64,000 bases of DNA, taken from NCBI RefSeq assembly GCF_002224645.1, contig NZ_CP022121.1, positions 1 through 64,000 on the forward strand, written 5' to 3'. Both the position numbers and the translations under genes were made by a program. Source of the stretch: Dehalobacterium formicoaceticum. Its GTDB lineage: Bacteria > Bacillota > Dehalobacteriia > Dehalobacteriales > Dehalobacteriaceae. Below, in pieces: positions 10,557-42,414 of the stretch. Under the pieces are notes generated by a model, which saw only the letters and a program-made list of their open reading frames with translations, was not told the origin of the DNA and did no database searches. How positions within the stretch are numbered: the first letter of the stretch is position 1; every line of letters starts with the position of its first letter.

Positions 10557-10573
10557 TTGCGTCAATTAGAAAT

Positions 10574-17158: not shown

Positions 17159-17178
17159 CTGCCTTTTTCCCTTTGAAT

Positions 17179-18624: not shown

Positions 18625-18639
18625 TACCTAGCTCCTTTC

Positions 18640-19224: not shown

Positions 19225-19242
19225 CCCCTTTATCCGTCAATC

Positions 19243-19539: not shown

Positions 19540-19597
19540 AATTCATTTACCTCCCCAAATTTAAAATTTATGGTTTATTCATCAGGATTTATAGAAA

Positions 19598-20278: not shown

Positions 20279-20319
20279 TTTTTCACCTCCCTGATTTTAT
20301 CAATTTTATCATAAAAGAA

Positions 20320-20868: not shown

Positions 20869-22205
20869 GGTCTACCACCTCCATCCCCGTCTGCTTCAAT
20901 GACAATATTGGCTGATACCTCTCTCACAACCCCGCTGATGCTGGCATGCACATTGGCACCCATGGCGCCTTCGGGAATTCCGCCAATTAATGCACCCCTG
21001 TCAACTCTTTGCCCTACTGTTACCAAAGGCTGGGCTGGAGCACCAAGATGCTGCTTTAGGGGAATCGTGACCTTTTGAGGTGCATAATCCACCTCTGTCA
21101 GAGGCGCTGCCACATTGTAGGGCATTAAACCTAAAGAAGCTACCAACCGTTTTACGGGGATTTTCATATATTCCCTGGTGGGAGTCACCTCTTCTTCCCG
21201 ATTATGGGGATCGGCTTTAATGCCGTTTTTACCCAATTCCATCTTGATCATGGCATTAATGCGTCGGGGAGAGAGATGCATAATATTGCAAGCATATTCA
21301 CAGGCACCGCACTCGGTACAGCTTAAAGCCATTTTCATCACGCCCAGTTCACCATCCATATAATTCAATCCCCGCATAATACGATGGGGACTCAACTTAT
21401 GGCCCAGCATATGACGAGGGCAAAGATCCGTGCATCTTCGGCACTGGATACATGCAGCTTTGGCATGCTTGATGATCGTGGCCAGGGACATGCTGCGCAC
21501 CTTCATCATGGGATGATCAGCAGCAAGAAGGATCAATCCTTTCGTCGTTTTGGTAATAGGCTGGTCGAAGTCCTCCAGCACCTTGCCCATCATAGGACCA
21601 CCTTCTACCACCAGCTTATCCTCCAGATTCCTTTGCCCGGCTAAAGCCAATGCTTCCGCTATGGTCATTCCGATGGGCAATTTTAAAGTGATCGGATTGG
21701 GCACCTCACCTGTCACTGTAAGATAAGTGTCTGTCACCGGGACATCATCTAAGGCATCTGCCACATTGATTAATGTTTCTACATTGTCTACCACGCAGCC
21801 AACTTTTAAGGGGATCCCCCCTTCAGGAATAATCTTCTTTGTCACCTCATAGACTGTGACATGCTCATCCCCGGCGGGATAAAAATCACCTAAAATAAAC
21901 AGCTTTAAAGGTTTACCGGCTATCGCTTTTTCCAGGGCTTCAATCGCCTCATGATATTTACTTTTTAATGCGATGGTGCCCAGTGATGCCCCCACCGCCT
22001 GCATCACAGCTTCCAATCCTCGGACCATCTTTTCTGCCTGTTCAGCCATCAATTGTTGGTCGACACGGAGCAGCGGCTCGCATTCCGCGCCGTTGACAAT
22101 TACATGCTCCGCTCCGGCGTTAACTTTAACATAGGTAGGAAACCCGGCACCGCCAGCGCCCACTACACCACCATCTTTAATTTTCTTAATAATTTCCTCA
22201 CGCAT
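20865..22205 (-). CDS. pduS: PduS-like flavin/Fe-S oxidoreductase (RnfC-type)
   Basis: 446 residues from the ATG at 22205 (GAGGTG upstream; an earlier in-frame start at 22223 has no site). Residues about 10-35 carry the glycine-rich nucleotide loop GGVVGAGGAGFPT. The centre has an SLBB region. Two [4Fe-4S] motifs follow: CIQCRRCTDLCPRHM and CTECGACEYACNIMHLSP. A barrel-sandwich C-terminus is present. In Pdu systems PduS reduces cobalamin and/or exchanges electrons with PduT. With no alcohol dehydrogenase in the locus it may recycle EutE-derived NADH. Confidence 0.93.
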   Translation of the reverse strand: MREEIIKKIKDGGVVGAGGAGFPTYVKVNAGAEHVIVNGAECEPLLRVDQQLMAEQAEKMVRGLEAVMQAVGASLGTIALKSKYHEAIEALEKAIAGKPLKLFILGDFYPAGDEHVTVYEVTKKIIPEGGIPLKVGCVVDNVETLINVADALDDVPVTDTYLTVTGEVPNPITLKLPIGMTIAEALALAGQRNLEDKLVVEGGPMMGKVLEDFDQPITKTTKGLILLAADHPMMKVRSMSLATIIKHAKAACIQCRRCTDLCPRHMLGHKLSPHRIMRGLNYMDGELGVMKMALSCTECGACEYACNIMHLSPRRINAMIKMELGKNGIKADPHNREEEVTPTREYMKIPVKRLVASLGLMPYNVAAPLTEVDYAPQKVTIPLKQHLGAPAQPLVTVGQRVDRGALIGGIPEGAMGANVHASISGVVREVSANIVIEADGDGGGRP

Positions 22206-22219
22206 AACTTTCACCTCGA

Positions 22220-22489
22220 TCAAACATCCTGCTGGTCCTCATCAATGATGCCCACAATTGTGGCATCAATAGGAGCATCTTTAAAATTCGGCATGCGCCG
22301 AGCCGAGCTCCCCTGGGTAATTAAAACCCTTTCCCCAATACCTGCCCCAATCATATCCAAGGCCACAATGATTCTGCCTTTGTCTTTTTCAGGAGTATCT
22401 TGAAGCTGCACAATCATAAATTTTGCTCCCTTAAGGGATTCGTCTTTCCTCGTAGACCAGATACTATTAATAACCTTACCAATTAACAT
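22220..22489 (-). CDS. eutN: pentameric BMC vertex protein (EutN/CcmL)
   Basis: 89 residues from the ATG at 22487-22489 with AGGTGG upstream; the longer frame to 22573 overlaps the next gene and is rejected. MLIGKVINSIWSTRKDESLKGAKFMIVQL at the N-terminus and DMIGAGIGERVLITQGSSAR are the EutN/CcmL signatures. It caps the twelve vertices of the shell. Confidence 0.94.
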   Translation of the reverse strand: MLIGKVINSIWSTRKDESLKGAKFMIVQLQDTPEKDKGRIIVALDMIGAGIGERVLITQGSSARRMPNFKDAPIDATIVGIIDEDQQDV

Positions 22490-22532
22490 TTTATCCACCT
22501 GCCTTCCCCATACAACCGGCTCTATATCTTTT

Positions 22533-22826
22533 TCAGGAGTTGAAAAATTCCGTAACCGCCTTAAGGGCAGCATCTACATCGGCAATGGTACCGAAGATGG
22601 CAATCAGGGTGACATGCTGGGGACAAATACCTCTGATTTCCTCCACTTCAACCTGCGCTGCCTTTTCCGCCACGTCTGCCGCGGTAATCATATCAACTAA
22701 AGCTCCTTGCACCAGACCAACAGCACCGGGAGCATGATGACTTTGTACATTGCCCGTTCTTCTCCGGGCCAGAATTGCCATGGTACCGGGAGAAGGAGAT
22801 TTAATAAACTGAATTTTAACCGACAC
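22533..22826 (-). CDS. permuted-type BMC-H shell protein
   Basis: 97 residues. The order of elements matches circularly permuted BMC-H proteins (EutS/PduU class). An N-terminal strand region (MSVKIQFIKSPSPGTMAILARR) precedes the core GAVGLVQGALVDMITAADVAEKAAQVEVEEIRG, and the protein ends right after ADVDAALKAVTEF. It is distinct from the true EutS at 29498-29845. Function: facet tile, possibly with a capped pore. Confidence 0.82.
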   Translation of the reverse strand: MSVKIQFIKSPSPGTMAILARRRTGNVQSHHAPGAVGLVQGALVDMITAADVAEKAAQVEVEEIRGICPQHVTLIAIFGTIADVDAALKAVTEFFNS

Positions 22827-22829
22827 CGT

Positions 22830-23666
22830 TTACGCCTCCTCCTGTTTTTGGGAACTGAGGGCGATACCCATGGGCGTAACCAAGAAAGGATTGTTGGGCT
22901 TCCAAGCGGGAATGCCCGTCTCATTTTGCACAATCGTTTCAATGCCCGGAAAGCAGCTGGTGCCGCCGGCAAGATAGATATTATCGATTTTATAAGGTTC
23001 AACGTGCTTCTTAATAATGGTAGCTACTTTTTCCATCACCGGCTTGAGCACCGGAAATAATTCCCTCTGCCGTTCCGGATTGGTTTTTAATTGTTCAGCC
23101 TCTTCAAATGGGATCCCATATGCTCCTGATACCACCAGAGTGAAATGAGTTCCTCCGGTAGCCTCATCAGCTACATAAATGACTTTTCCCTCTTTGAGAA
23201 TCGCCACCCCGGTGGTTCCTCCTCCGATATCCACCACGGCTCCGTTTTTAATCCCTAAAACATAATTAGCTGCCGTAGGCTCATCCACCAGATGAGTCAC
23301 ATCAAAGCCGGCGCCTTCCACTACATACTGAATAGCTTTTTGATCTCCCCCTACAGTACCCGGGGGATAGGCTGCCCCAGCTGCTAAAAGTTCTACACCC
23401 AGCTTCTCTTCAATTTCTCCCTTTAGTTCTTGCACAATTTTTCTCGCACCCACAAAATCAACGACTAGTCCGTCTTTAACAACCTCAGCATAACGCATGG
23501 CTCCTGTGACCGGCCGACCTTGATCATCCACCACAGCCAGCACAATATAGGCGGTCCCCAAGTCCACACCGGTAAAAAGTTTCGCCCCCTTTTTTACTGA
23601 AGCAGGGTGAGTCATTGTCTCTTCAAACCTTTTGATCAACTGGTTCGCATCCTCTAAGAAGTCCAT
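22830..23666 (-). CDS. eutJ: EutJ, Hsp70/actin-fold chaperone-like protein
   Basis: 278 residues. Actin-like ATPase motifs are present: FTGVDLGTAYIVLAVVDDQG (phosphate 1), VVDIGGGTTGVAIL (phosphate 2) and NIYLAGGTSCFPGIE (adenosine). EutJ is shorter than DnaK and is presumed to assist assembly or reactivation of compartment enzymes. It lies 21 bp from eutT. Confidence 0.93.
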   Translation of the reverse strand: MDFLEDANQLIKRFEETMTHPASVKKGAKLFTGVDLGTAYIVLAVVDDQGRPVTGAMRYAEVVKDGLVVDFVGARKIVQELKGEIEEKLGVELLAAGAAYPPGTVGGDQKAIQYVVEGAGFDVTHLVDEPTAANYVLGIKNGAVVDIGGGTTGVAILKEGKVIYVADEATGGTHFTLVVSGAYGIPFEEAEQLKTNPERQRELFPVLKPVMEKVATIIKKHVEPYKIDNIYLAGGTSCFPGIETIVQNETGIPAWKPNNPFLVTPMGIALSSQKQEEA

Positions 23667-23687
23667 GACGATATTCTCCTATCTATA

Positions 23688-24446
23688 TCAACACCCTATC
23701 CGATAGTGACCGGATACGAGTTGAACCATCATTATATAAAGCAAACTGCTTAACCTGTTTAATCCTTGAATAATATCTTCCCGTTCTACTACTTCCGGAG
23801 CAACGGTAAAGGCATCCATGGCGGATAATTCCAGTTCCCGCACTTGGGTTCTAAGATAATTTAACCGTGCCATATATGATCCCTGGGCAGGATCAGGCAA
23901 CAGATGATTTACCCCAAAATACTTTTGGGGAAAATGGGAGCGGGTTCGGATTTCCTCCGCAGACCATCCGTGAAAACTGATCGGCACCAAGGGCTCGTTC
24001 TTTACCTCTGCCCGGAGCATTTGTCGCACATAGTCTAAAATTTCTCTTAAATCCCGTCCCACTTCCTGATACCCGACTCCTTCGAACTCAATAATCCCGT
24101 TGATCAATAAGGCCTCAAAGGTATCCAAACGCCCACGAAATTTAATCCGGGGATGATTCTTGTAGACCATTTCACGGCCATTCAAATGGGTCATCTGCTC
24201 CGGCTTTTCTTTAATTTCCGATACCTGATACCTTTTATATTGAGTCTGGCTTCCTGCTTCCCCCAGAAGCTTTTCCTGCCCATCCCCGTTTTTTGCAGAG
24301 GTCGAATTTCCATTTACAGCAATCCTCCGTTCACTAAGAAACTGGGCCGCAGCAGGTGTTAAGCGGCTTCCTTCCGGAAGGGTAAAGGAAGTAAATTCGT
24401 TCTTACGATATTCATCCCGCAGTTCGGTTTCCGTGATCGCTCTCAT
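23688..24446 (-). CDS. eutT: EutT-type cob(I)alamin adenosyltransferase
   Basis: 252 residues from the ATG at 24446 with AAGGAGGTG; the longer ORF to 24620 has no ribosome site and overlaps eutL. Residues 1-50 form the lead domain (MRAITETELRDEYRK...TLPEGSRLTPAAAQFLSERRI). The rest is the helical adenosyltransferase core (FRGRLDTFEALLINGIIEF...ELELSAMDAF). I do not find the HX11CCXXC metal motif of the Salmonella enzyme, so it would belong to the subgroup without it. It supplies adenosylcobalamin to EutBC. Confidence 0.9.
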   Translation of the reverse strand: MRAITETELRDEYRKNEFTSFTLPEGSRLTPAAAQFLSERRIAVNGNSTSAKNGDGQEKLLGEAGSQTQYKRYQVSEIKEKPEQMTHLNGREMVYKNHPRIKFRGRLDTFEALLINGIIEFEGVGYQEVGRDLREILDYVRQMLRAEVKNEPLVPISFHGWSAEEIRTRSHFPQKYFGVNHLLPDPAQGSYMARLNYLRTQVRELELSAMDAFTVAPEVVEREDIIQGLNRLSSLLYIMMVQLVSGHYRIGC

Positions 24447-24483
24447 TGATCCCACCTCCTTATCTGTTCTGGTCAAAGAACTA

Positions 24484-25140
24484 TTATCCTTCAATGGGAT
24501 TACGGGCAACACTGACGACCGCATCACGAAAAGCATCAGCTGCTGCTTTGCAAGCACTTTGGGATCCTGTGAGCAGAGCACCGCCAAAGTTAGTCCGGCT
24601 AGGAGGCCCATACCAAACACCCATTTTTACATCTGCGGCCTTAAGGGCTGCATCCACCCCATAGGTTGCTTCCAAGGGAGGAGCAATGAGATAACAGATG
24701 GGTTCCCCTTCACTCACCCCGGCACCCTTGGATAAATAGGATCCCGTACGGGAGATGGTGTAAGCAAAGAAAGATATCGTCCCTTCCTCATTGGCTGTAT
24801 AAAAGAAAGCATCATTTTCAATCAATTGCAAAGCAGCATCAATACCGGCACGAACTTCCGCCGGATCGGGTCCCGCTAAAATACCGATAAATTCCCCTGC
24901 TAATGGTGTATTGGCATTAGCTGCCCCGCCATAAAAGGAGTCGGCATATACCACTTCCACAGCCGCTTTCTTTGTTGCCTCATCAATGGCCGCATAGGCC
25001 ACATCATCAATGTCGCAGGTAAAAAATCCGATACTGTTTTGTCCCGGTTTCAGGTTCATGCTTTGAGCCAACCCCGGTGATACATTGGGAATATACCGGA
25101 CAGCAAGAACTTTTGCCTTTACCGGCTCTAAAATTGCCAT
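24484..25140 (-). CDS. eutL: EutL trimeric BMC-T shell protein
   Basis: 218 residues, normal length for EutL, with its typical start (LEPVKAKVLAVRYIPNVSPGLAQSM) and conserved DIDDVAYAAIDEATKKAAVEVVYADSFYGG and AADVKMGVWYGPPSRTNFGGALLTGSQSAC. EutL forms gated trimers with large pores and can bind ethanolamine. It sits between eutA and eutT, as in classical eut operons. Confidence 0.96.
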   Translation of the reverse strand: MAILEPVKAKVLAVRYIPNVSPGLAQSMNLKPGQNSIGFFTCDIDDVAYAAIDEATKKAAVEVVYADSFYGGAANANTPLAGEFIGILAGPDPAEVRAGIDAALQLIENDAFFYTANEEGTISFFAYTISRTGSYLSKGAGVSEGEPICYLIAPPLEATYGVDAALKAADVKMGVWYGPPSRTNFGGALLTGSQSACKAAADAFRDAVVSVARNPIEG

Positions 25141-25194
25141 TTTATAAACCTCCCCTATGCTTTACTTATTTTGATTGCTCATTGAAATATGGAA

Positions 25195-26664
25195 TTATCG
25201 ATCAAAGACCAAGGTTTTCACCACAACAGGAACGACTCTTCCACCCATTAAGGGTTTCCCCAGATCGATATAATCCCCCTCATCAACCCAGACCTGGTCG
25301 ATACAAATAATTTCCGCATCCATACCTAAACGAATTTGCAGGGTCTGACCCAGCACTTTGGCACAGTCTTTTTGCAGTACGACGATCAAAGGCTTTCCTG
25401 GTTCCAGATAATCCCCCATTCCTTTGATCAATCCCTCCGCCAGCGTCTGAATATTGGCGAAGGTGACCTCTTCCGGCCCCGCCATAGCTAATGCCACCTG
25501 GGAAACGGACCCGTCAGAAACCACTCTCTCTACGGTTCTTAGCACCTGCTCCGCGATTTCGTCCACGGTGTCAGGAATTCTATGGGGAAAGGGAGAGAGG
25601 ACAGATACGTTTTTCAAAGGTAAATTTTCATCCTGCACGGTAATAGTGCTCCCGCTGAGGTTCACGGAATGTGCTCCCGCACCGATTACTGTGGCTCTGA
25701 TGGTTTCTCCCGGTTGCACCGGTTCAATCCCGGCCTTGTGCAGTTCTTGCCGCACCGCCCAGCCCAGCACAGGACCGATATCCCCATACTGAGCAACCTG
25801 GGCCACAGAGATGGGCGTAAAATCGTAATAAACAAAGTCTGCTACCCCGCCGGAAAACATCACCCGCTCGACAGGATAATCCAGCCTTAAGGGAGATGTC
25901 ATCAGCAGATTCCGGGTAAGATCACTGATATTGCTTAGGGTGATGGCTTCCACCACACTTTGCGCCATCAGGGAGGCGATGGTCTTTAGTTCAGCCAAGC
26001 TGACCCGATCTCCCACCATCAGCGGAAGTCCTAATTCACGGAGCACAATCCGTGCCGGTTCCGTAATATATGTGATCTTGTCGGAGTTCTTTTCTATTTC
26101 AATTAGATGGCCCCCAATATTCAAGCAAGCGGTATCAATAGTGTTTCCCTCCCGGAAAACTCCGATATTCGACGTTCCTCCGCCCATGTCCACATTTACT
26201 GTAACCCGATGTTTCTCCTTAGAAAAAGCCGCTGCTCCTGCACCTTTGCCGGCGAGGATTGATTCTAAATTCACACCCGCCGTGGCTACAACAAAATCTC
26301 CAGCCAGCCCAGCCATAGATTCCAGGATATTCCTGGCATTTTCTTTTTTCGCCGTTTCACCTGTAATGATCACCGCTCCGGTGTCAATTCCTTCTGCTGT
26401 GATACCGGCTTCTTTGTATTCCTGCTCCACAATTTGAGCCACTGCTGCAGCATTGATCAGATCATGGTTCTTTAAAGGTGTAAAATGAATGGCGCTGCGG
26501 TGCAGCACGTCCTTATCTGTAATCTCCATGCGGGGAATGGCTGATCCGGGAGCAATATTCTTGATAGTTAAGCGACTGATGACCAATTGGGTGGTTGTCG
26601 TCCCAATATCGATGCCCACACTGATGATACTTTGCTTGCTGGAACTACTGATTGAACTCACCAC
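25195..26664 (-). CDS. eutA: EutA, ethanolamine ammonia-lyase reactivase
   Basis: 489 residues. The sugar-kinase/Hsp70-like fold shows in [18 protein letters not shown] (about 16-33), [17 protein letters not shown] and [13 protein letters not shown]. EutA exchanges damaged cobalamin on EutBC for adenosylcobalamin using ATP. It is placed directly after eutBC, as its partnership requires. Confidence 0.95.
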
Positions 26665-26736: not shown

Positions 26737-27654
26737 TTACTGAAGATTTAATTTCATCCCGCTGCATTTAGCTGCTAAGATTTGTTTCACAACATCAACC
26801 AAAAGGGCTCCTGCCTCCGCCGGAGGAGTACCCCCTTTATGAATATTGGAGATCATCGTACGATCCGCTTCAACTGTATTTTTATTTGGCTTGTAAATCA
26901 TATAGGCGCTCATACTATCTGCCGTAACCAATCCGGGGCGCTCTCCAATTAAGGACACTACCACCTCAGCATTCAAAAGCATCCCTACCTCATCCTGTAC
27001 TCCAACCCGGCCGTTTTTAATAAAGAAGGGCGTGCCCACCTTAATGCCTGCTGCGGTGAGGCCCTGAGTCAGAGCAGGCAGCACATCTGCCACATTGGCC
27101 TCTATCGCGGAGGAACTTAAGCCATCGATAATAATAATTTGCACTTGGGGATTTTGCTGGCACTTCTCGGCCACTATTTTTTTCCCTTCTTCAGACAATC
27201 TTCTCCCCAGATGAGGCATTTTTAAAAATTCATCTTTATCTTTAGCTGCACTTTCTACGGTGAAAAGATTCATCTTAGCAAGAAAATCCTCGGCAACATC
27301 CATGAAGACAGCATCCATAGCCTGGGCATGATCTGCCAGGAATTTTAGATGGGCATCGGTTTTGGGCCGTGCTCCCGCTCGGAATAAGCCAATTCGGGCC
27401 GGCGTAGATGCTTTCATCGCTTTAATCGCATCCAAATTCACCGGATTGGGTACCCAAACTCCGCTGATATCAGGCACTTCAATCGGAGCTTCTTCAGTAT
27501 ATGGGGAAGATACTGCAGCTTGAGATCCAGTGGTAACCGATTGCACTGCCTCTTTACAAGCCGCTTCCACTTCTCCGCCAAGCATCCCTCTTTTCGCCAA
27601 TTCTTTCATCACATTATCTATGATCAATTTTTCCATTTGATTATCTGCACTCAT
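26737..27654 (-). CDS. eutC: ethanolamine ammonia-lyase small subunit EutC
   Basis: 305 residues from the ATG at 27654 (GGGGGTG upstream). The N-terminal helix MEKLIIDNVMKELAKRGML (about 7-25) plus a linker is the encapsulation peptide that directs EutBC into the shell. The catalytic/B12-binding core follows: ARIGLFRAGARPKTDAHLKFLADHAQAMDAV, IIIDGLSSSAIEAN and VSLIGERPGLVTADSMSAYMIYKPN. An almost identical helix is present at the C-terminus of the amidohydrolase-like protein at 32584-33525. Confidence 0.96.
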   Translation of the reverse strand: MSADNQMEKLIIDNVMKELAKRGMLGGEVEAACKEAVQSVTTGSQAAVSSPYTEEAPIEVPDISGVWVPNPVNLDAIKAMKASTPARIGLFRAGARPKTDAHLKFLADHAQAMDAVFMDVAEDFLAKMNLFTVESAAKDKDEFLKMPHLGRRLSEEGKKIVAEKCQQNPQVQIIIIDGLSSSAIEANVADVLPALTQGLTAAGIKVGTPFFIKNGRVGVQDEVGMLLNAEVVVSLIGERPGLVTADSMSAYMIYKPNKNTVEADRTMISNIHKGGTPPAEAGALLVDVVKQILAAKCSGMKLNLQ

Positions 27655-27671
27655 CCGTGTCACCCCCTGAA

Positions 27672-29036
27672 TTATTTATCAAAAATTGAAGGATCTCCCG
27701 CCTTCTTCGTGAGCCGTCCATTTTCCATGATTTCCATTTTCTCCAACCACTTTTCAAATTCCGGCAGCGGCCTTAAATTTAAGATTTCTCGTACAGAAGC
27801 ATCGTCATGATAACTGGTGTCCTGGTAACTAAGCATAATATCATCTCCGCCGGGAACACCCATAAAGAAATTAGCGCCTGCCATGGCACATAGCATGGTG
27901 CCTACTTCCTGGTCATTCTGATCCGCTTTCATATGATTGGTATAACAAGGGGCAATACCCATGGGAAGTCCGTGGAGCTTACCCATAAACAGATCTTCCA
28001 GATCTGCCCGGATTACTTCCTTACCGTCATAGATGGTTTCCGGTCCAATAAACCCGGTAACATTATTGGTCATAAAGGGACGGAAGTGCCGGCCAAAGCC
28101 ATAGGTTCTAGCTTCCAATGTCATTTCATCCACATCATGATGGCATTCAAGGGAGATCTCAGAACCTTGTCCCGTTTCAAAGTACAGGAGATTGGGGCCG
28201 GTGCCATAACCTTTGCGGCAAGCCAGATCATAGGCTTCATCCAAGATTGCCTTGGTGACACCGAAAGCATCATTAGCGGCCTGAGTTCCGGCAATACTTT
28301 GGAAAATAAGGTCAGAGGGAGCACCTAATTCCAGAGCCTTCATCTGAGTGGTAACATGGGCCAATACACAAGCCTGGGTGGGAATTTCCCATTTATGCAT
28401 AAATTCTTTAACGGCTTCCAATTGTCTTTTGACCGTTTCCGCATTGTCTTCCACCGGGTTGATGCCAATCACCGCATCTCCTGCTCCAAAAGACAGGCCT
28501 TCCTTCATGGACGCCATAATCCCCTGAATGCTGTCTGTAGGATGATTGGGCTGGTTACGAAAAGCCAAAGTTCCCGGAACCCCCAAGGTCGTATTGCAAT
28601 GAGTCTGAATTCTCATTTTCTTGGCTGCATAGACCAAGTCCATATTAGACATGAGCTTGGCCACGGCAGCAATCATTTCGCTGGTCAGGCCCCGGCCCAG
28701 ATGTTTCAGATCATTGTCCCCGGTATCCAGATCCAGGATATAATCCCTTAACTCACCTACGGTATAATTTTTAAACTGATTATAAATGCTGATATTTAAA
28801 TCATCGTAGATAAGCCGGGTTACCTCATCTATTTCGTAGGGAATCACCGGATTATTATATATATCTTCTAAAGTCAGACGGCTGAGCACAAGTCTAGCCG
28901 CTACCCGCTCCGATGCGGAAGCAGCACCGATTCCCGCCAGCATATCACCTGATTTTTCTTCGTTGGCTTTCGCGAGAACCTCCTTGACACTTTTGAAGGT
29001 AAAAGATTTGTTATAAACCTTCGCTGATAAATTCAC
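27672..29036 (-). CDS. eutB: ethanolamine ammonia-lyase large subunit EutB
   Basis: 454 residues, full length. This B12-dependent radical TIM barrel converts ethanolamine to acetaldehyde and ammonia. Family blocks include GDMLAGIGAASASERVAARLVLS, HCNTTLGVPGTLAFRNQPNHPTDS, LSFGAGDAVIGINPVEDN, ACVLAHVTTQMKAL and FETGQGSEISLECHHDVDEMTLEART. Stop-to-start spacing to eutC is 17 bp. Adjacent eutP lies upstream. Confidence 0.97.
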   Translation of the reverse strand: MNLSAKVYNKSFTFKSVKEVLAKANEEKSGDMLAGIGAASASERVAARLVLSRLTLEDIYNNPVIPYEIDEVTRLIYDDLNISIYNQFKNYTVGELRDYILDLDTGDNDLKHLGRGLTSEMIAAVAKLMSNMDLVYAAKKMRIQTHCNTTLGVPGTLAFRNQPNHPTDSIQGIMASMKEGLSFGAGDAVIGINPVEDNAETVKRQLEAVKEFMHKWEIPTQACVLAHVTTQMKALELGAPSDLIFQSIAGTQAANDAFGVTKAILDEAYDLACRKGYGTGPNLLYFETGQGSEISLECHHDVDEMTLEARTYGFGRHFRPFMTNNVTGFIGPETIYDGKEVIRADLEDLFMGKLHGLPMGIAPCYTNHMKADQNDQEVGTMLCAMAGANFFMGVPGGDDIMLSYQDTSYHDDASVREILNLRPLPEFEKWLEKMEIMENGRLTKKAGDPSIFDK

Positions 29037-30384: not shown

Positions 30385-30400
30385 TGCAAGAATCATGCCA
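30385..30400 (-). promoter_or_regulatory. sigma54 (-24/-12) promoter for the eut core operon
   Basis: On the minus strand the site reads TGGCATGATTCTTGCA, matching the consensus TGGCAC-GR-NNN-TTGCW at all but one key position. It lies 100 bp before the EutM copy 2 ATG and has no competing gene on its strand. The 394-bp gap it sits in (30286-30679) also holds the terminator at 30609-30650 and the palindrome at 30463-30478. Confidence 0.8.
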
Positions 30401-30679: not shown

Positions 30680-32123
30680 CTATTTTAGCTTGGCAACTAT
30701 TTCTTGAACAACCGCTGTAATATTATCGATATTTAATTCATCATGTTTACAAATAAAAGAAATTTTCGTTTCGGCAGATTTGAGGTTGTACGCCATCCTT
30801 TTAATATTAATTAAATTCATCGGAGATACATTATCAGATGTGCTGCTTCCTGCCAAAGTACCACAGCCTAAAGTCAAAGAGGGAACCAATCCGGTAGTTA
30901 AGCCAATCCCCCCCCAGGGAACCCGGGGTATTCACTAGAATCCTGGACACAGGTTTACGGAAAAACTCTCGAATCACAGTTTCATCTTCAGAATGAATAC
31001 AGAAGGTATGTCCCGCTCCCATCAAGGAGAGCAAATCAATCGCCAGATAACAGCCTTCTTCCCAGTCCTTTACCACATAAAAAGCCAAAACTGTGGTAAG
31101 TTTTTCATATGATAGGGGATATCCCGGGCCGAAACCGTCTAAAGGGGCAATTAAGAGGCGCGTGCCATCGGGAATCTGAATACCCGCCTTATCCGCAATA
31201 ACATGAGGACTTTTCCCTACCATGGCGGCATTCATGCCACCTTTTGGTGTCATGACAACTCGGCTTACCTTTTCAACCTCTGTTTTGTTCAGAAAGTATG
31301 CGCCTTGTGCTTCGAATTCAGCAACTACCTGCTCCTTAATCGGCTCATCCACTAAAACTGAATTTTCAGAAGCGCAAATCACTCCATTATCAAAGGTTTT
31401 CCCGGTAACGATGCTATAAACCGCTTTTTTAATATTAGCTGTACGTTCAATAAAAACCGGTGCATTTCCTGCTCCCACACCCATCGCCGGTTTACCGGAA
31501 CTATAAGCAGCTTTCACCATGCCTGGTCCGCCGGTGGCAAGGATGACGGCAATATTTTCATCATGCATCAATGAATTGGTTGCCGCCTGTGTTACCTTGG
31601 AAATACAGCCAATGATCCCCTCCGGAGCACCAGCTCGGATGGCCGCTTCATGCATAACCTGAGCAGCTGCATTAATGCAACGGCTGGCATTGGGGTGGGG
31701 TGAAAAAACAATCCCATTTCCTGCCTTGAGAGCAATTAATGATTTAAAAATAGTCGTAGAGGTAGGATTGGTAGACGGAATAATCCCCATAACCACACCC
31801 ATGGGAGAACCAAATTCAATAACCTTACGTTCCGGATCTTCTTTTAGCACCCCAACAGTTTTCATATCTTTGATATAATCATAAACATTTTGTGAAGCAA
31901 ATAAATTTTTCTTGACTTTATCTTCAAAAATCCCGAATTTCGTTTCATCTACGGCCATCTTTGCCAACCATTCCGCATTATCTCTGGCTGCTTCAAACAT
32001 TGCAGTTACAATTTTATCGATCTGTTCCTGAGAATAACCGGCTAATATTCCCTGAGCTGCTTTGGCACTACGGGCCACATCCCGAGCTTCCTGAATGGAA
32101 CTCAAATCATAATCTATTGTCAC
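30680..32123 (-). pseudogene. eutE: CoA-acylating aldehyde dehydrogenase (EutE type), copy 2, frameshifted
   Basis: From the GTG at 32123 (AAGGAG upstream) the reading frame matches EutE copy 1, including FDNGVICASENSVL, up to TPGSLGG. There an eight-C tract (30908-30915 on the plus strand) shifts the frame. Copy 1 reads GGIGY at this point. The +1 frame then continues with VPSLTLGCGTLAGSSTSDNVSP and ends in a targeting-like helix, DNITAVVQEIVAKLK. Removing one C restores a full 480-residue enzyme. Either a recent mutation, phase variation at the homopolymer, or a sequencing error explains this. The truncated product would lack the C-terminal region and targeting helix. Confidence 0.85.
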
Positions 32124-32171
32124 TATGCCAACTCCTTCCCACATCCTTGAGGAGATTTTATGATGTGCCCG

Positions 32172-32471
32172 TTATTCATTGCCTTGGGGAAATTTCTTAT
32201 AATCATCAGGTAAAATCATCTCTACATCCTGATGAGGTCTGGGAATTACATGAACTGAAACCAACTCTCCTACTCTTTGTGCGGCTGCCGCACCAGCATC
32301 TGTAGCAGCTTTTACAGCTCCCACATCGCCTCTGACCATCACAGTCACCAAACCACCACCGACAATAACTCTTCCTATCAAGGAGACATTGGCCGCTTTA
32401 ACCATGGCATCTGCTGCCTCGACAGAACCAACCAAACCTTTCGTTTCGATCATTCCTAATGCATTCGTCAT
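32172..32471 (-). CDS. eutM: BMC-H shell protein (EutM type), copy 3
   Basis: 99 residues. It matches copies 1 and 2 through most of its length but has GRVIVGGG at the pore edge, V/S changes at positions 17, 30 and 71, and a different tail ([11 protein letters not shown]). It lies between the amidohydrolase-like gene and eutE copy 2, so it is co-expressed with them from the sigma54 site at 33585. The Ile at the pore replaces His of the other copies and should make the pore less polar. Confidence 0.95.
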
Positions 32472-32583: not shown

Positions 32584-33525
32584 TTAACCCAGCATGCCTC
32601 TTTTAGAAAGTTCCTTCATCACATTTTCAATGATCATTTTTTCTAACTGGGAATTTTGAGTTTTTGGTTGATCTGGTAGAATAGTTCCTTCATCTTGTAA
32701 TCCCAAAACTCGGGAGGCATTTTTATACATGATTTTTTCTCTTACATCATCCTTGAGGGGCATATTTTCATAAGTCTTGATGGCTTCTCTAAAGTCTACA
32801 AAGGGGTGGGCACTGGCAAACATCACCTTATCACCGATGATGGTATTAACAGCTTGAATATAAGTATCCGACAAAGGAAATGCTTCATATTCGGATAATT
32901 CCAAATATACATTTGCATTACGCTGGCAAACAATGATCATTTCATTTACCCATGGATAACCGCCATGGCTGACCACAATCTTTAACTCTGGAAAATCTCT
33001 GGCTACAAAATCAATATATCTGGGGGCAACATGATCAATAATAGCATTTGGCACTAAAGTTGCTGTTCCAGTTGTAATAACAAGCGGAATGTTCAGTTCA
33101 CAGCATTTGGCGAAAATAGGATAATACTTCGCGTCATTTACATAGATTTGCGCTAGGTAAGGATCAATGGCAGCACCCTTGATGTTATGCTCGCTGACAG
33201 CAATTTTTAATTCTTCAATAGCACGCATACCTTTATGGGGATCAAGGCCAACAAAACCGATAAATTTATCAGGATATTTACTGGAGAATTCAATGACGCT
33301 GTCATTATTTGATTTGGCCGCATAAGTTGTTTCGCAGTCACGTCCTGTGATAACGGCCTTAACCACTTGATACTTATCCATTTCTGCTACAACTTCAGAT
33401 AAAGCCTGTCCTTTCATTTTCGAAAAATCAATGGAAGCACATAATCCTTTGAACATGGTGCTATTAGCAATCCCTGCTAATGTTTCAGGGGTGTTAGGTC
33501 TAAACCTAAAGTCAATTACCTTCAT
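32584..33525 (-). CDS. amidohydrolase-like TIM-barrel protein with C-terminal BMC-targeting peptide
   Basis: 313 residues. The body (1-280) has the Amidohydro_2 fold pattern (FIGFVGLDPHKG, KGAAIDPYLAQIYVND, LKIVVSHGGYPWVNEMI, ASRVLGL). The N-terminal metal motif HxH is replaced by DFRFRP, and the usual terminal Asp region reads FASAHPF, so metal-dependent hydrolysis is doubtful. After a linker the last 20 residues, LEKMIIENVMKELSKRGML plus Gly, match the EutC N-terminal targeting helix at 15 of 19 positions. First gene of the BMC locus, behind a sigma54 promoter. It is probably compartment-resident. The reaction, if any, is unknown. Confidence 0.8.
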   Translation of the reverse strand: MKVIDFRFRPNTPETLAGIANSTMFKGLCASIDFSKMKGQALSEVVAEMDKYQVVKAVITGRDCETTYAAKSNNDSVIEFSSKYPDKFIGFVGLDPHKGMRAIEELKIAVSEHNIKGAAIDPYLAQIYVNDAKYYPIFAKCCELNIPLVITTGTATLVPNAIIDHVAPRYIDFVARDFPELKIVVSHGGYPWVNEMIIVCQRNANVYLELSEYEAFPLSDTYIQAVNTIIGDKVMFASAHPFVDFREAIKTYENMPLKDDVREKIMYKNASRVLGLQDEGTILPDQPKTQNSQLEKMIIENVMKELSKRGMLG

Positions 33526-33584: not shown

Positions 33585-33600
33585 AGCAATATTCATACCA
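33585..33600 (-). promoter_or_regulatory. sigma54 promoter for the amidohydrolase-eutM3-eutE2 transcript
   Basis: Minus strand TGGTATGAATATTGCT: the -24 GG and -12 GC are 12 bp apart, with TTGCT exact. It lies 60 bp before the ATG at 33525 and is divergent from the activator gene that starts at 33713. Confidence 0.7.
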
Positions 33601-33712: not shown

Positions 33713-35173
33713 ATGGGCATAATTGAGGTGAGTGATACGCTAAATACAAAAAAGAATCATGACGAAGACCTTATTGTGCAAGAATATTTTGATGATATTC
33801 TTAATACCATTACTGATGGCATCTATATTTCTGATGCTTCCGGTAAAACCTTAAAAGTCAACAAAACTTATGAAATGCTTACCGGTATTAAGGGAGAAGA
33901 AATAATCGGCAAATATGTCACAGACTTAGAAAATGAGGGTGTTTTTAATAACATATTAAACCCGAAAATCGTCAAAACGGGGAAGGCCGCCTCCTCGGTA
34001 CAATACAATGCCAAAGGAAGAAAGGTGGTATTAAGCGGATATCCCATCTTTAACACAACCGGCCAAGTTGTTTTAGTAGTTACCTTTGCCAGAGATATCA
34101 CTGTCTTGTCCCAATTGGAGGATCAAATCAGCTTTCAACAGGGAATCATTAAGAAATCCCAACAAGAAGTGGAGTTTTTATATAACAAACATCAGAAGGA
34201 AAGCGGCAAATTTTTTAACAGCTGCGATGAAATAATGTTGGACATGATGGATTTATTGAAGAGAATTGCTTTAACAGATGCTACTGCGCTGTTGCTGGGA
34301 GAAACCGGCGTAGGAAAAGGTGTTATCGCCCGAAAAATTCATGAATTCAGTCCCCGCAACAAAAGACCTTTTTTTAAAATTGATTGTACCGCCATTCCGC
34401 CCAGTCTCATTGAATCGGAATTGTTCGGTTATGAACGAGGTTCCTTTTCCGGGGCAAATGCCAAGGGGAAACCGGGTCTGGTTGAAATGGCCGATACAGG
34501 CACCTTATTTATTGATGAAATCGGGGAACTTCCCTTGGCCATTCAAGGGAAACTCCTTAGAATCATTCAGGACCAGGAAGTTTTGAGGGTTGGAGCGACG
34601 AGTGTCAAAAATGTTAACGTGCGCATCATCGCTGCTACCAATAGAAATCTGGAAGATGAAGTTGCAAAAGGGGTTTTTCGATCTGACCTTTATTACCGGC
34701 TAAAAGTAGCTGTGATCAATATTCCCGCTTTGCGGAAAAGAAATAAGGACATCCTGCCTCTGGCCCAATTCTTCCTGGAGAAATTTAATCTTAAATATAA
34801 CCAAAGAAAAACTTTTTCAAAAGATGTTGAGCATGTTTTCCTCCAATATAAATGGCCGGGAAATATTCGCGAATTGGAAAATTTGATTCAAAGTTTAATT
34901 ATCACCTCGGAAAACAATGTGATCGGAACTACCAATTTACCTTCCAATATGTATCATAATACGAATCATGCCGGTGTTGCCCAATTTCCCTCTATTAATA
35001 TTAATACTGCTGATAAATCTTTTAAAGAGATCATGAATGAGATCGAACAAAAATTGTTGGATGATGCAATGCAAAAATATGGGAGTATATCAGCAGTCGC
35101 TAAAGCATTTAAAGTTGATCGGTCTACAATCTTTAGAAAATTAAAAAAGAATCCCGAATATATTGCAGAATAG
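33713..35173 (+). CDS. PAS-domain sigma54-dependent transcriptional activator
   Basis: 486 residues. An N-terminal PAS domain (about 20-130: DDILNTITDGIYISDASGKTLKVNKTYEMLTG) and a coiled linker (about 140-165) precede the AAA+ domain (about 175-400). This has Walker A GETGVGKG, Walker B GTLFIDEIGELP and a sigma54 loop written GSFSGA instead of GAFTGA. The C-terminal Fis-type HTH reads YGSISAVAKAFKVDRSTIFRKLKK. It probably senses a metabolite through PAS and activates the four sigma54 sites around it. The RBS is weak. The stop codon lies within the terminator stem. Confidence 0.93.
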   Translation: MGIIEVSDTLNTKKNHDEDLIVQEYFDDILNTITDGIYISDASGKTLKVNKTYEMLTGIKGEEIIGKYVTDLENEGVFNNILNPKIVKTGKAASSVQYNAKGRKVVLSGYPIFNTTGQVVLVVTFARDITVLSQLEDQISFQQGIIKKSQQEVEFLYNKHQKESGKFFNSCDEIMLDMMDLLKRIALTDATALLLGETGVGKGVIARKIHEFSPRNKRPFFKIDCTAIPPSLIESELFGYERGSFSGANAKGKPGLVEMADTGTLFIDEIGELPLAIQGKLLRIIQDQEVLRVGATSVKNVNVRIIAATNRNLEDEVAKGVFRSDLYYRLKVAVINIPALRKRNKDILPLAQFFLEKFNLKYNQRKTFSKDVEHVFLQYKWPGNIRELENLIQSLIITSENNVIGTTNLPSNMYHNTNHAGVAQFPSININTADKSFKEIMNEIEQKLLDDAMQKYGSISAVAKAFKVDRSTIFRKLKKNPEYIAE

Positions 35174-35786: not shown

Positions 35787-36848
<1,062 letters not shown>

Positions 36849-36866
36849 ACGCAGCAGGGGATATGA

Positions 36867-36891
36867 GTGTAGGGGGGTAACACCCCCTCAC
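36867..36891 (+). promoter_or_regulatory. intercistronic hairpin dctP/dctQM
   Basis: AGGGGG (36871-36876) pairs with CCCCCT (36883-36888), plus a few outer pairs. Such hairpins between a binding-protein gene and its permease gene often protect the upstream mRNA and keep the binding protein in excess. Confidence 0.5.
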
Positions 36892-36937
36892 ATCCTACTT
36901 ACCGTTCTAAAAACTTACTGTATAGAAAGGGATCGAT

Positions 36938-38818
36938 ATGGCTAATACATCTAATGAAAATCAATCTAAAAAGCCTAAGGGCATCCTATCATGGTTGGAT
37001 GAAAATTTTGAGAAACCATTCCTCTTTATTGGTATGTTGGCGATAATTATCTTTATTACCTACCAAACCCTTTATCGCTATTTAGTTTCACAATTTTTTG
37101 GCGGAGCCGGGATTCCCGTTTGGACTGAAGAACTATCCAGATTTATCTTTATTTGGATCTCCTATTTAGCTGTTCCCATAGCCATTAAGGAACGTAGTAA
37201 CATTCGAGTAGATATACTTTATGACCGTCTTTCGGATCGATGGAAAAAAATCAGCTGGATTTTGGTGGATCTTTGCATTCTTGCACTCACTGGAATGATT
37301 TTCTACATGGGGATCGACCACATCCGGATGCAGTTTGAATTTCCCCAAAATACTGCTTCAATGGGTATCCCTTATTTTATTCCCTATTTAATCTTACCTA
37401 TTGGCTTTGGCTTAATGGCCATCCGTGCGATTCAGGATTTGATAAAAGAAATAAAATCAATACCAATGAAAGATACGCTTATAGGCCTACTCTGTGCAAT
37501 AATTATTGCAATTCCTCTCTTTATCGGCTTGGAATTACCTGCTTTGGTTTGGCTGTTCGGTTACTTTATCCTTTTTTTGGCTATCGGTGTGCCTGTGGCC
37601 ATGTCCTTAGGACTTTCCGCCATGGCCACCATTATCGGAGCAGGAACGATGCCGGTAGAATATGTAGCCCAGATTGCTTTTACATCTATTGACAGCTTCC
37701 CTATTATGGCCATTCCTTTTTTTGTTGCCGGTGGTGTTTTTATGGGCGTAGGGGGCTTATCCAAACGACTCTTAGACTTAGCTGATGAACTTCTGGGCAA
37801 TTTCACCGGAGGTTTGGCTCTAGCCACTGTTGCTACCTGTATGTTTTTCGCTGCCATTAGCGGGTCCGGACCTGCCACAGTGGCCGCAATTGGCTCTTTA
37901 ACCATTCCAGCCATGGTGGAAAGAGGATATGACAAGTATTTTTCCGCCGCCTTAGTTGCCGCGGCCGGCGCCATCGGGGTCATGATTCCTCCCAGCAATC
38001 CTTTTGTGGTCTATGGTGTTTCCTCTCAGGCTTCTATTGGCAAGCTTTTTATGGGCGGGATCGTACCAGGAATTTTAACCGGCTTAGTATTAATGGGTGT
38101 TAGTTATTATTACGCTAAGAAAAATAATTGGAAAGGCGAAGCGCGTAAGCGTACCGCCAAGAGCATTGGATTAGCTTTTTGGGATGCCAAATGGGCATTA
38201 ATGGTACCTGTGATCATTTTAGGTGGTATCTATTCAGGAAAGATGACCCCCACAGAAGCAGCTGCGGTATCTGCCTTTTATGGATTAATTGTAGGATTAT
38301 TTGTTTACAAAGGAATTAACATGCAGAATATTATTTCCTGCTTTATGGAGGCCTGCAGCACCTCCGCGGTTATCATCGTTTTAATGGCCATGGCTACAAT
38401 ATTCGGTAATATAATGACCGTTGAACAGGTACCGACGATGATCGCTGCTGCTATCCTTAAATTTACATCCAGTAAGATTATGATCCTTCTGATTATTAAT
38501 ATCTTCCTTCTCTGGGTAGGGACTTTTATGGAAGCATTGGCGGCAATTGTGATTCTCACCCCCATTCTCCTTCCCGTCGTAACCCAGGTTGGGGTAGACC
38601 CTGTTCACTTTGGCGTAATCATGGTGGCCAATTTGGCAATTGGCTTTATTACCCCACCAGTAGGTGTGAACTTATTCGTGGCTTGCGGAGTCGCCAAATC
38701 CAAAATCGAAGATATTGCTAAGGCTGTGATACCTATGTTGCTTGCTATGATTGCTGTTTTACTTTTGATCACTTATGTACCAGAGGTCTCCATGTTCCTG
38801 ACCAAGTATGTTAAATAA
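36938..38818 (+). CDS. dctM: TRAP transporter fused DctQM membrane protein
   Basis: 626 residues. Residues about 1-180 are the four-helix DctQ small subunit (FIWISYLAVPIAIKERSNIRVDILYDRL). Residues about 185-626 are the twelve-helix DctM large subunit with AISGSGPATVAAIGSLTIPAMVERGYDKYFSAALVAAAGAIGVMIPPSNPFVVYG. Fusion of Q and M is common. It uses a Na+ gradient to import the DctP ligand, here probably isethionate. Confidence 0.95.
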   Translation: MANTSNENQSKKPKGILSWLDENFEKPFLFIGMLAIIIFITYQTLYRYLVSQFFGGAGIPVWTEELSRFIFIWISYLAVPIAIKERSNIRVDILYDRLSDRWKKISWILVDLCILALTGMIFYMGIDHIRMQFEFPQNTASMGIPYFIPYLILPIGFGLMAIRAIQDLIKEIKSIPMKDTLIGLLCAIIIAIPLFIGLELPALVWLFGYFILFLAIGVPVAMSLGLSAMATIIGAGTMPVEYVAQIAFTSIDSFPIMAIPFFVAGGVFMGVGGLSKRLLDLADELLGNFTGGLALATVATCMFFAAISGSGPATVAAIGSLTIPAMVERGYDKYFSAALVAAAGAIGVMIPPSNPFVVYGVSSQASIGKLFMGGIVPGILTGLVLMGVSYYYAKKNNWKGEARKRTAKSIGLAFWDAKWALMVPVIILGGIYSGKMTPTEAAAVSAFYGLIVGLFVYKGINMQNIISCFMEACSTSAVIIVLMAMATIFGNIMTVEQVPTMIAAAILKFTSSKIMILLIINIFLLWVGTFMEALAAIVILTPILLPVVTQVGVDPVHFGVIMVANLAIGFITPPVGVNLFVACGVAKSKIEDIAKAVIPMLLAMIAVLLLITYVPEVSMFLTKYVK

Positions 38819-38905: not shown

Positions 38906-41389
38906 ATGGAATGCTGTGCAAGAGTATTATCACCCCATGAACAAAGAATCCAAGACGAAATTATGGGAAAGGCAAGTATTGAAGGCCGGGAAAGAGTCTT
39001 TGGTATTTTGAATAGTTTCCAAGGACAACGCCCCAGCGTGGATGTGGAAAGAGCCCAGTACTTTACCGAATCTTTTAAAGAAACGGAAGGTGAATTGTTA
39101 ACCTTACGTTGGGCCAAGGCTTTAAAGCACATTGCAGAAAACATCACCGTGTATATTGACGACCAGCAGCTATTAGCGGGCAGAATTGGCCATCCCGGCA
39201 GATATGGTATTCTTTACCCGGAATTAGACGGAGACTTCCTTGATTTAGCCGTTAAGGATCTTCCCAAGCGAGTGGAATCCCCTTTTAATCTCTCTAATAA
39301 AGATGGGGACATCATCATTAATGAAATTGCACCTTATTGGAAAGGTAAAACCTTCCACGAAGAATTTGCCCAATCATTACCTGAAGATACCTTGAAATTA
39401 ACTTATGACCCCAAGGATCTACTGAAATCTCGTTTCATCGTTAACGAAACAGCTTCCTTCCGTTCATCCATCCAATGGGTGCATGACTACGAAAAGGTGC
39501 TCAAAATTGGTTTCAAAGGGATCAAAGAAAAAGCTCAGAAGCAAATGGCCGCTCTCGATCCTATGAGTCCGGCAGACAATGTGGAAAAGAAGCCGTTCTT
39601 AGAAGCAATCATTACTGTATGCGATGCTATCGTACTTTGGGCTAATCGTCATGCCAAATTAGCAGCAGAACTGGCTGCCAAAGAAACTGATCCTCAAAGA
39701 AAAGCAGAACTGGAAGGAATCGCTGAAAGATGTGCTTGGGTTCCGGAAAATCCGGCACGTAATTTCCACGAAGCGATGCAATCTCAATGGTTCACCCAAA
39801 TGTTCTCCCGTTTAGAACAAAAAACAGGCACCGTGGTTTCTAATGGCCGAATGGACCAATATCTATATCCTTACTATAAAAAAGATTTGGCAGAAGGCAA
39901 AATAACCCCGGAAAAAGCCACAGAATTAATTGAATTAATGTGGGTGGCCATGGCCCAATTTATTGATCTGTACATCTCACCTGCTGGCGGAGCAATCAAT
40001 GAAGGCTATGCCCACTGGGAAGCTGTGACCGTTGGCGGCCAAACTCCAGATGGACGTGATGCGACCAACGATTTGACATACATTTTCCTACAGTCCAAGA
40101 GAGAATTCCCTCTGAACTATCCAGACCTGGCAGCGAGAATTCATGCCCGGGCTCCGGAAAGATACCTTTGGGAAGTAGCAGAAACTATCAAGGAAGGTTC
40201 TGGGTTCCCCAAACTGATTAACGATGAAGAAGTTATTCCTCTCCATCTGGCCAAAGGAGCGACTTTTGAAGAAATTTACGATTATGCTGTATCCGGTTGT
40301 GCTGAAATCAGAATGCCGAACAGAGACACTTACACCAGCGGCAACCCCTACATTAACTACGCTGCTGCTTTAGAGATGCTGCTCTATAACGGCAAAATGA
40401 AAACCTATGGAGATGAACAGCTGGGATTGGAAACGGGAGATCTTCGAGAATTTAAAACCTGGGATGAACTCTGGAACGCTTATATTGCTCAACAAGATAA
40501 TTTCCTTAAACACGCTTTCATCCAACAGCACCACGTAATTAGTAATAGAGCCAAGCATTTTGCGGCTCCTTTGGGTTCGGCAATGCATGACCTATGTATG
40601 AAAAACTGCATTGACCTGCATCAGCCTAATATTGAAGGCGGCATTAACTTAGGTTACTTTGAATGTATTGGTTATGCTACCGTGGTTGATTCATTGGCTG
40701 CCATCAAAAAGCTTGTCTTTGAAGAGAAAAAATTGACCATGGCTGAGTTATTAGAAGCTTTAGAAAGCAATTTCGAAGGCAAGGAAGTCATTCGTCAAAT
40801 GTTATTAAATGCTCCTAAATACGGAAATAACGATGAATATGCTGATTCGATTGCCAAGGATATGGATCTGGCTTCTTTGGAATACACTAAGAAATACTCC
40901 AAGGAATTAGGCGTACATCTTGATTTAAGATATGTACCCTTTACCTCCCACGTTCCCTTTGGTAAAGTAGTCAGTGCTACACCAAATGGACGTAAAGCCT
41001 GGACGCCTCTATCCGACGGGTCTTCTGCTTCACAGGGCGCCGATACCCATGGTCCCACAGCGGTAATGCTGTCCAACTTTGAATCGAAGAACTATGACCA
41101 CAGGGAACGAGCTGCCCGCTTGCTGAATATCAAATTTAGTCCTAAATGTGTTGCCGGCGATGAAGGTACCGCAAAACTGGTTTCCTATATCAGAACCTTC
41201 TGCGACTTGAAACTCTGGCATGTCCAATTTAATATCGTCAATAAGGCAACTTTGCTGGCTGCTCAAGATGATCCGGAAAAATACCGCAACCTGCTGGTGC
41301 GGGTAGCTGGATACAGTGCCTATTTTGTAGATCTATCTCCGGAATTGCAGCAAGATATTATTGAAAGAACTGAACACGAGGCTGTATAA
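38906..41389 (+). CDS. islA: glycyl radical enzyme, probable isethionate sulfite-lyase
   Basis: 827 residues. It is predicted to cleave isethionate to acetaldehyde and sulfite. The radical loop RVAGYSAYF places Gly802; the thiyl Cys465 and base Glu467 sit in [11 protein letters not shown]. Arg186, Gln190, Trp371 and Arg675 fall exactly three positions before the residues I recall for Bilophila wadsworthia IslA (189, 193, 374, 678; Cys468, Glu470, Gly805). The CutC/PD-dehydratase motif GCVEP is absent. There is no N-terminal targeting extension. The alternative is another sulfonate lyase such as HpsG. TRAP and activase neighbours and the acetaldehyde-type BMC favour IslA. Confidence 0.87.
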
Positions 41390-41478: not shown

Positions 41479-42414
41479 ATGACAAGTAATGAAAATTTTG
41501 ACAAGAACAAAATGGGCTATGTCTTTAATATTCAAAGATATTCCGTACATGACGGGCCCGGTATCAGAACCATGATCTTCCTGAAAGGCTGTCCTTTAAG
41601 ATGCAGCTGGTGCAGCAATCCGGAATCCCATGAGCGGCATCCCGAAATAGCCTATAATAAAAACAAATGCATTGGAACCAATGAATGTATTCGTTGTATT
41701 GAGATTTGTCTCAAAGGGGCCATTAAAAAAGGACCTGATGACAAGATTATGATTGACCGGGAGCTGTGCAATAATTGCGGGGCATGTGCTGAGGTTTGCC
41801 CTGCCAAAGCTATAACTGTCTATGGAAAACTAATGAGTGTGGAAGAAGTTTTAAAAGAGGCGGAAGCAGACAGTATCTTCTTCTCCCGCTCCGGCGGCGG
41901 AATCACCATCAGTGGAGGTGAACCTTTTACGCAGGCGGAATTCACTATTGAACTGCTTAAAGAAGCAAAAAAAAGGCGGCATAATACAGCCATTGAAACA
42001 ACGGGTTATACAGATTGGGAAAACCTATCAGAGGCATGTAAATACCTAAACTCAATATTGTATGATATTAAATCCATGGACTCCGAAAAACACAAAAAAT
42101 TTACCGGAGTTTCAAATGAACTTATCCTCGATAACTTTAAGAAAATGTGTACTGCTTATCCCAGTTTAGCAGTACATGTAAGAACCCCGGTAATACCGGG
42201 ATTTAATGATACCGAGGGAGATATCCGAGCTATTATCGCATTCATCAAAGACTTCCCTAATGTAAAGTATGAACTTCTTCCCTACCACCGTCTAGGCCAG
42301 CAAAAATATGAGTTCATTGGCAAAGATTACCCCTGTGTCAATCTCAGACCGGATGATAATAAGATGAAAGTTTTAAATGAAATCGTAAACAATAGTTACA
42401 CCTCTGATCAATAA
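41479..42414 (+). CDS. islB: glycyl radical enzyme activase (radical SAM)
   Basis: 311 residues. The radical SAM motif CPLRCSWC (CX3CX2C, about 35-42) follows SVHDGPGIRTMIFLKG. Two ferredoxin-like clusters are present (CIGTNECIRCIEIC and CNNCGACAEVCPAKA, about 62-115), as in the larger activases. SGGGITISGGEPFTQAEF is the SAM-binding GGE region. It installs the radical on Gly802 of the preceding enzyme. Upstream RBS AAGGGAA. Confidence 0.94.
   Translation: MTSNENFDKNKMGYVFNIQRYSVHDGPGIRTMIFLKGCPLRCSWCSNPESHERHPEIAYNKNKCIGTNECIRCIEICLKGAIKKGPDDKIMIDRELCNNCGACAEVCPAKAITVYGKLMSVEEVLKEAEADSIFFSRSGGGITISGGEPFTQAEFTIELLKEAKKRRHNTAIETTGYTDWENLSEACKYLNSILYDIKSMDSEKHKKFTGVSNELILDNFKKMCTAYPSLAVHVRTPVIPGFNDTEGDIRAIIAFIKDFPNVKYELLPYHRLGQQKYEFIGKDYPCVNLRPDDNKMKVLNEIVNNSYTSDQ

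Follow-up and report, generated by a model that had tools for sequence, protein, structure and literature searches.

An amidohydrolase-like neighbour of sulfonate-cleaving radical enzymes with a probable encapsulation peptide

We conclude, with a probability of about 0.75, that the amidohydrolase-like protein described here (AMH) is a dedicated accessory of the pathways of sulfonate-cleaving glycyl radical enzymes (GREs), namely isethionate sulfite-lyase (IslA) and the DHPS enzyme HpsG, and that its C-terminal helix serves in the present genome as an encapsulation peptide. The AMH gene (ORF 32584–33525, minus strand) encodes a protein of 313 amino acids with the N-terminus MKVIDFRFRP, and it lies in the window, by which we mean the whole 64-kb stretch of DNA that was analysed.

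Orthologues of AMH were collected by a one-genome-per-species scan together with whole-genome searches. After loci too near contig ends were dropped, 91 AMH loci were left. All 32 shell-linked loci encoded an AMH with a C-terminal extension, whereas none of the 59 loci without shell genes did so. When shell-linked, AMH extended about 29 or more residues past the barrel; untailed AMHs ended at about residues 276–283. A few rows missed by the regular expression were scored by eye, loci L114 and L115 were scored as shell-linked because their shell genes lay just beyond the fetched stretch, and in L009 one shell gene was visible before the contig passed to other genes. Several of the genomes with an untailed AMH carried shell genes elsewhere, indicating that the tail follows linkage and not simply the possession of a shell. 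The best tree contained at least six changes of tail and shell state, of which three fell on branches with strong support, and each change affected tail and shell together; phylogenetic clustering limits a formal test, and a sign test on the three strongly supported contrasts gave p = 0.25. Counting against the pattern, the tailed AMHs of L265, L280 and perhaps L269 lay near contig ends with no shell genes in view. An earlier note on this DNA, which had proposed a compartment tag on AMH, had set against its own proposal any homologue bearing the helix outside a BMC locus; none turned up among the 59 AMHs that lacked shell genes and had 6 kb or more of sequence on each side, and all 59 were untailed.

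The geometry of the tail was of the encapsulation-peptide type, a terminal helix of about 15–20 residues behind a flexible linker. In the predicted structure, the barrel was followed by a disordered stretch (residues 279–291) and then by a terminal helix (residues 291–308, mean pLDDT 83). The N-terminal peptide of EutC and the encapsulation peptides of EutE and PduL likewise consist of a short terminal helix that follows a flexible linker on BMC cargo. The cargo differs, and the AMH tag is C-terminal, like those of the window's EutE1 and EutE2, whereas that of EutC is N-terminal; encapsulation peptides are known at either end of their cargo, including published C-terminal cases (PMC8217296).

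AMH orthologues occurred in Firmicutes and Desulfobacterota, most of them next to an isethionate/DHPS-sulfolyase-class GRE with its activase. In 71 of the 91 AMH loci, a GRE with 60% identity or more lay within about 10 kb, and two more loci had a GRE of 50–60% identity. Across 395 Desulfobacterota genomes, an AMH of more than 50% identity was present in 14 of the 16 with a GRE at 62% identity or above, and in 0 of the 379 others. Certain GRE genomes or GRE copies were without AMH (G398, G513, L175), and thus AMH is not essential to GRE chemistry. In a tree, some of the AMH-associated GREs grouped with IslA structures (5ymr, 7kq3) and others with 6lon. In a separate GRE tree, five rows (L147, L160, L162, L169, L170) were antisense frames chosen by their length, and these were ignored. 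We took 6lon to be HpsG on account of its identity to Bilophila IslA, which at 61% fits the 60.6% published for HpsG (PMC8397734). The HpsG-like AMH loci all lacked shell genes (13/13), which fits hydroxyacetone as the product, since this compound is thought to be less toxic than acetaldehyde (PMC8667426). The termini of IslA were alike with and without shell genes, leaving no evident tag on IslA; because these ends do not change between settings, AMH and not the GRE would be the tagged partner. No HpfG (DHPS dehydratase) above 36% identity was found on the plasmids searched. Separately, five loci (L273, L274, L275, L278, L288) encoded divergent AMHs (about 45–48%) beside GREs that were 55–63% identical to IslA/HpsG, and these are possibly further sulfonate-cleaving GREs.

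The features of the window locus are collected in Table 1. We take the ORF beside EutC to be EutB, and EutE1 and EutM1 were named by similarity to EutE2 and EutM3. The regulator divergent from AMH also adjoins AMH/GRE in other genomes. Two sigma54-type sites were found in the 64-kb window, compared with 0.07 expected by chance. The earlier note had placed AMH at the head of the BMC operon behind its own sigma54 site. The site itself was confirmed, but a second one separates off the eut genes; that is, because the eut genes have a sigma54-type site of their own, AMH would head a short unit (AMH, EutM3, EutE2) and not necessarily the whole BMC cluster.

Table 1. Coordinates of AMH, its parts and its neighbours in the window.
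Feature	Position	Strand	Basis or remark
AMH core, residues 1–276	32698..33525	−	Amidohydro_2 TIM barrel, RxR (DFRFRP) replacing HxH
AMH disordered linker, residues 277–290	32656..32697	−	Model pLDDT <50 at 279–291
AMH C-terminal encapsulation-peptide-like helix, residues 291–313	32587..32655	−	Stop codon 32584–32586
sigma54-type −24/−12 site TGGTATGAATATTGCT, upstream of AMH	33585..33600	−	Motif search
PAS + sigma54-activator regulator, divergent from AMH	33713..35173	+	Domain matches
BMC-H shell protein (EutM type; EutM3), next gene after AMH	32172..32471	−	
EutE2, acetylating aldehyde dehydrogenase, broken frame	30834..32144	−	C-terminal part and tag in ORF 30680–30889
Second sigma54-type site, upstream of EutM2 and eut genes	30385..30400	−	Motif search
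EutC	26737..27663	−	N-terminal tag 27577–27648, same family as AMH tail
EutB	27672..29036	−	Named from sequence and position beside EutC
Remaining BMC cluster	16490..26664	−	EutA, EutL, EutT, EutJ-like, EutN, PduS/RnfC-like, BMC-T, EutQ, EutM1, BMC, EutE1, PTAC (PduL)
TRAP transporter DctP + fused DctQM	35814..38818	+	sigma54-like site at 35448–35463
Sulfonate-cleaving GRE, IslA type	38906..41389	+	73% identical to 5ymr
Radical-SAM activating enzyme (IslB type)	41479..42414	+	

The region from 16490 to 42414 thus places an ethanolamine route (EutBC) and an isethionate route (IslA) in one locus, with three sigma54-like sites (at 30385, 33585 and 35448), and both routes are expected to feed acetaldehyde to one shell. 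The frame of EutE2 was broken at a G8 run, which may reflect sequencing error, phase variation or decay. Its continuation ended in the C-terminal tag NIDNITAVVQEIVAKLK, and EutE1 was likewise tagged C-terminally. An arylsulfotransferase-like protein (42538–44034, minus strand) directly adjoins the IslA operon.

The window GRE carried the IslA residues T310, G311, T312, N368, G586 and F682 (Bilophila numbering). Of 58 discriminating positions, the majority state of the window-type GREs agreed with IslA at 38 and with HpsG at 11, where HpsG is represented by 6lon, itself so assigned by inference. In the tree, these GREs branched outside the group of IslA and HpsG. Judged by its sequence, the window GRE is a member of the IslA/HpsG class with IslA-type active-site residues. 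The cluster also encodes two acetylating aldehyde dehydrogenases and a PTAC, which makes isethionate the most likely substrate. We dropped the name HpsG given by NCBIfam NF048011, because authentic IslA structures score almost as high (1556, 1503 bits). That family, (2S)-3-sulfopropanediol dehydratase (HpsG), takes in authentic IslA well above its cut-off, and so annotations derived from it may be wrong.

The match of AMH to Pfam Amidohydro_2 (PF04909; E = 6.4e-38, 131.6 bits against a gathering cut-off of 26.4) placed it in that fold family, in agreement with the amidohydrolase-like call of the earlier note. The alignment begins at profile position 26, and for this reason the HxH part of the profile was unmatched. 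Metal-site positions were placed from alignments that included the solved relative 3irs. These confirmed that the barrel lacks HxH where DFRFRP stands, and RxR (R7, R9) occupied the classical HxH position in all 88 AMH homologues analysed. Four residues were invariant in the same 88 sequences (R7, R9, R62, A239), the last of these replacing the beta-8 Asp with Ala. The beta-5 His position held T, A or S (T151 in the window protein), and the beta-6 His (H187) was the sole classical metal-site residue left. Ten polar or charged positions (R62, D63, D95, H97, K98, D121, S186, H187, E212, E214) were conserved in about 93–100% of the 88 AMHs. AMH is thus an Amidohydro_2 member by fold and not a classical metal-dependent HxH enzyme. 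The LigW/LigJ/ACMSD-type enzymes of Amidohydro_2 share with it the barrel fold and the beta-6 His; in AMH, by contrast, R7 and R9 stand in place of the two His of HxH, T151 in place of the beta-5 His and A239 in place of the beta-8 Asp.

The best solved match to AMH was BB4693 of Bordetella bronchiseptica (PDB 3irs/3k4w; profile E = 2.2e-48 by sequence, E = 2.8e-17 by fold). This protein, which is uncharacterised, reads IDFRLRPP and likewise has no HxH; it differs from AMH in having no tail and in lacking the GRE-linked residues E65, H97, K98, E212 and E214. The loss of the metal motif had earlier been taken to mean that AMH may be a pseudoenzyme. This idea was not supported, because RxR is found throughout the subfamily and in 3irs, and the polar active-site set is conserved. 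The invariant arginines and the conserved polar pocket point instead to a working, probably metal-free, anion-binding site and not to a dead scaffold, and AMH is probably not a pseudoenzyme.

How such a protein would serve the pathway can be outlined as follows. The tail would bind the shell and take AMH into the microcompartment that handles acetaldehyde from isethionate (IslA) and ethanolamine (EutBC), and the core would be a metal-free enzyme for an anionic substrate. AMH might then act in the lumen as a lyase on sulfite or sulfonate species made through the GRE, for example an aldehyde-bisulfite adduct. Sulfite adds to aldehydes and ketones, and IslA and HpsG yield a carbonyl compound together with an equal amount of sulfite; because both GREs give this pair, an adduct lyase would serve both pathways, cytosolic and in-shell. 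Sulfite is the product common to the two enzymes (PMC8397734). By splitting the adduct, AMH would keep both GRE products free. R7, R9 and R62 would hold the sulfonate while H/E/D residues deprotonate the hydroxyl, and a site that pairs arginines with general bases would suit an adduct lyase. That AMH in fact splits alpha-hydroxysulfonates (the sulfite adducts of acetaldehyde or hydroxyacetone) is a guess from this chemistry and the conserved charges, and on balance we think it unlikely. Somewhat less likely again is the fuller proposal that AMH is the first dedicated alpha-hydroxysulfonate lyase, metal-free and re-tagged several times with unrelated tags as the pathway moved into microcompartments.

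A close to even chance attaches to the alternative that AMH works as an enzyme in this pathway but on a different substrate or in a different role, for example as a hydrolase, an isomerase or a repair enzyme for a GRE side product. The conserved pocket would suit such a duty, as would the catalytic diversity of Amidohydro_2, since decarboxylases, hydratases and hydrolases of this family were among the structural matches. No specific evidence opposes it, and only the substrate sets it apart from the favoured reading. One particular version, the isomerisation of hydroxyacetone to lactaldehyde, was set aside, since AMH is found with IslA too and the carbonyl product of IslA is an aldehyde from the start.

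AMH could instead be a non-catalytic scaffold or adaptor, which binds the untagged GRE and carries it into the shell by the AMH tail where a shell exists. The absence of an evident tag on IslA in shell-linked loci, the position of AMH next to the GRE in most loci, and the loss of the canonical metal ligands would all fit. However, AMH with the same polar pocket is kept in the 59 loci that have no shell genes and hence no need of targeting, and some IslA and HpsG copies are without AMH; we therefore consider the scaffold improbable.

The tails themselves varied between lineages. Firmicutes AMHs bore IIExVIKELAKRG-type helices, and related helices were seen in some Desulfobacterota. One further AMH clade had DMVADIVREVLARL-type tail helices, and the AMH of L268 had another helix. 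In L267, the AMH tail DIDAIASRIVAELKKVM (AMH at 9280–10605) was nearly identical to the tail DIDAIASLIVAELKKAL of the co-encoded EutE (6781–8208). Four AMHs carried a non-helical, proline-rich tail of the PLPYLPFxP type (L254, 9500–10435; L256, 9323–10381; L257, 2308–3387; L261, 9338–10252), possibly a different class of targeting peptide. The EutE of these four shell-linked loci had no C-terminal tag. It looks like one cargo was tagged repeatedly, its tails being replaced or independently acquired between lineages.

The resemblance of the window tail to EutC that the earlier note had reported was real. The AMH tail (...LEKMIIENVMKELSKRGMLG-stop) and the EutC head (MEKLIIDNVMKELAKRGMLGG) were identical at 16 of 20 residues and 49 of 63 bases. 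Only one of 2000 random window stretches scored as high, and that one, at 63/63 bases, must be the tail itself. A hidden Markov model (HMM) of AMH tails from other genomes, built without the window sequence, gave strong matches in only two of the 165 window ORFs, one at the AMH tail (E = 1e-10) and one, equally strong, at the EutC head (E = 2e-10). The same peptide family was found on the EutC heads of one EutC lineage (G002, G003, G044, G047, G090), and other EutC lineages had another peptide or none.

The further claim that this locus had captured the 5' end of eutC fared less well. We regard it as doubtful that the AMH tail came from eutC in an ancestor of the window genome. In its favour are the base and residue matches given above, and a hand count in which the AMH tails of the window and of G044 fit the EutC head of their own genome better (16/20 versus 13/20). 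Against it, related AMH tails occur in many genomes, and eutC was not found in every tagged lineage: seven tagged-AMH genomes (G045, G048, G059, G176, G323, G607, G864) gave no match to eutC at E ≤ 1e-20. Matching is almost as good for the nearest AMH tails (44/63 bases for L009), the tails of other lineages are unrelated or resemble EutE tags, and convergence on a common shell partner accounts for the same data. Capture is possible but not required by the data, and the AMH tail is best regarded as belonging to a family of shared tags, in which transfer may have run in either direction. It is the sulfonate GRE, and not EutC, with which AMH is really partnered.

That the tail arose by chance or is a structural appendage, with no targeting function, is highly improbable: the hydrophobic moment of its helix did not differ from that of shuffles, but the tail matches the shell perfectly over 91 loci and resembles both EutC and EutE tags. 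The earlier reading of the tail as a compartment tag was supported. Taken together, the 32/32 versus 0/59 contrast, the lineage-varied tails and the tagged genomes without eutC make it very probable that the tail serves as an encapsulation peptide.

Tagged BMC cargo is a known kind of protein, and AMH itself is a conserved GRE neighbour and not a eutC novelty of the window genome. In the IslAB BMC cluster of Bilophila wadsworthia, HMPREF0179_00649 is listed as a "predicted amidohydrolase" with no function or tag assigned (PMC8667426, Table 1); it is presumably the AMH orthologue, and it too lies in an isethionate sulfite-lyase microcompartment cluster. Our literature search found an amidohydrolase joined with the isethionate sulfite-lyase in that paper only. 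Within the searchable literature, neither the cargo family nor its link to the two radical enzymes nor its changing tails appear to have been described. The suggestion that the IslA/eut BMC locus holds, in AMH, a separate and uncharacterised class of cargo is supported.

Desulfonation of isethionate and DHPS feeds sulfite respiration and H2S formation by bacteria of the gut and of sediments (PMC8397734, PMC8667426). That both radical enzymes share a conserved but unstudied partner would imply a step or factor absent from the current pathway scheme. The tail-shell pattern across many genomes offers a natural experiment in the recruitment of proteins into microcompartments, and two tail types of AMH, the proline-rich and the dehydrogenase-like, are new candidate tags.
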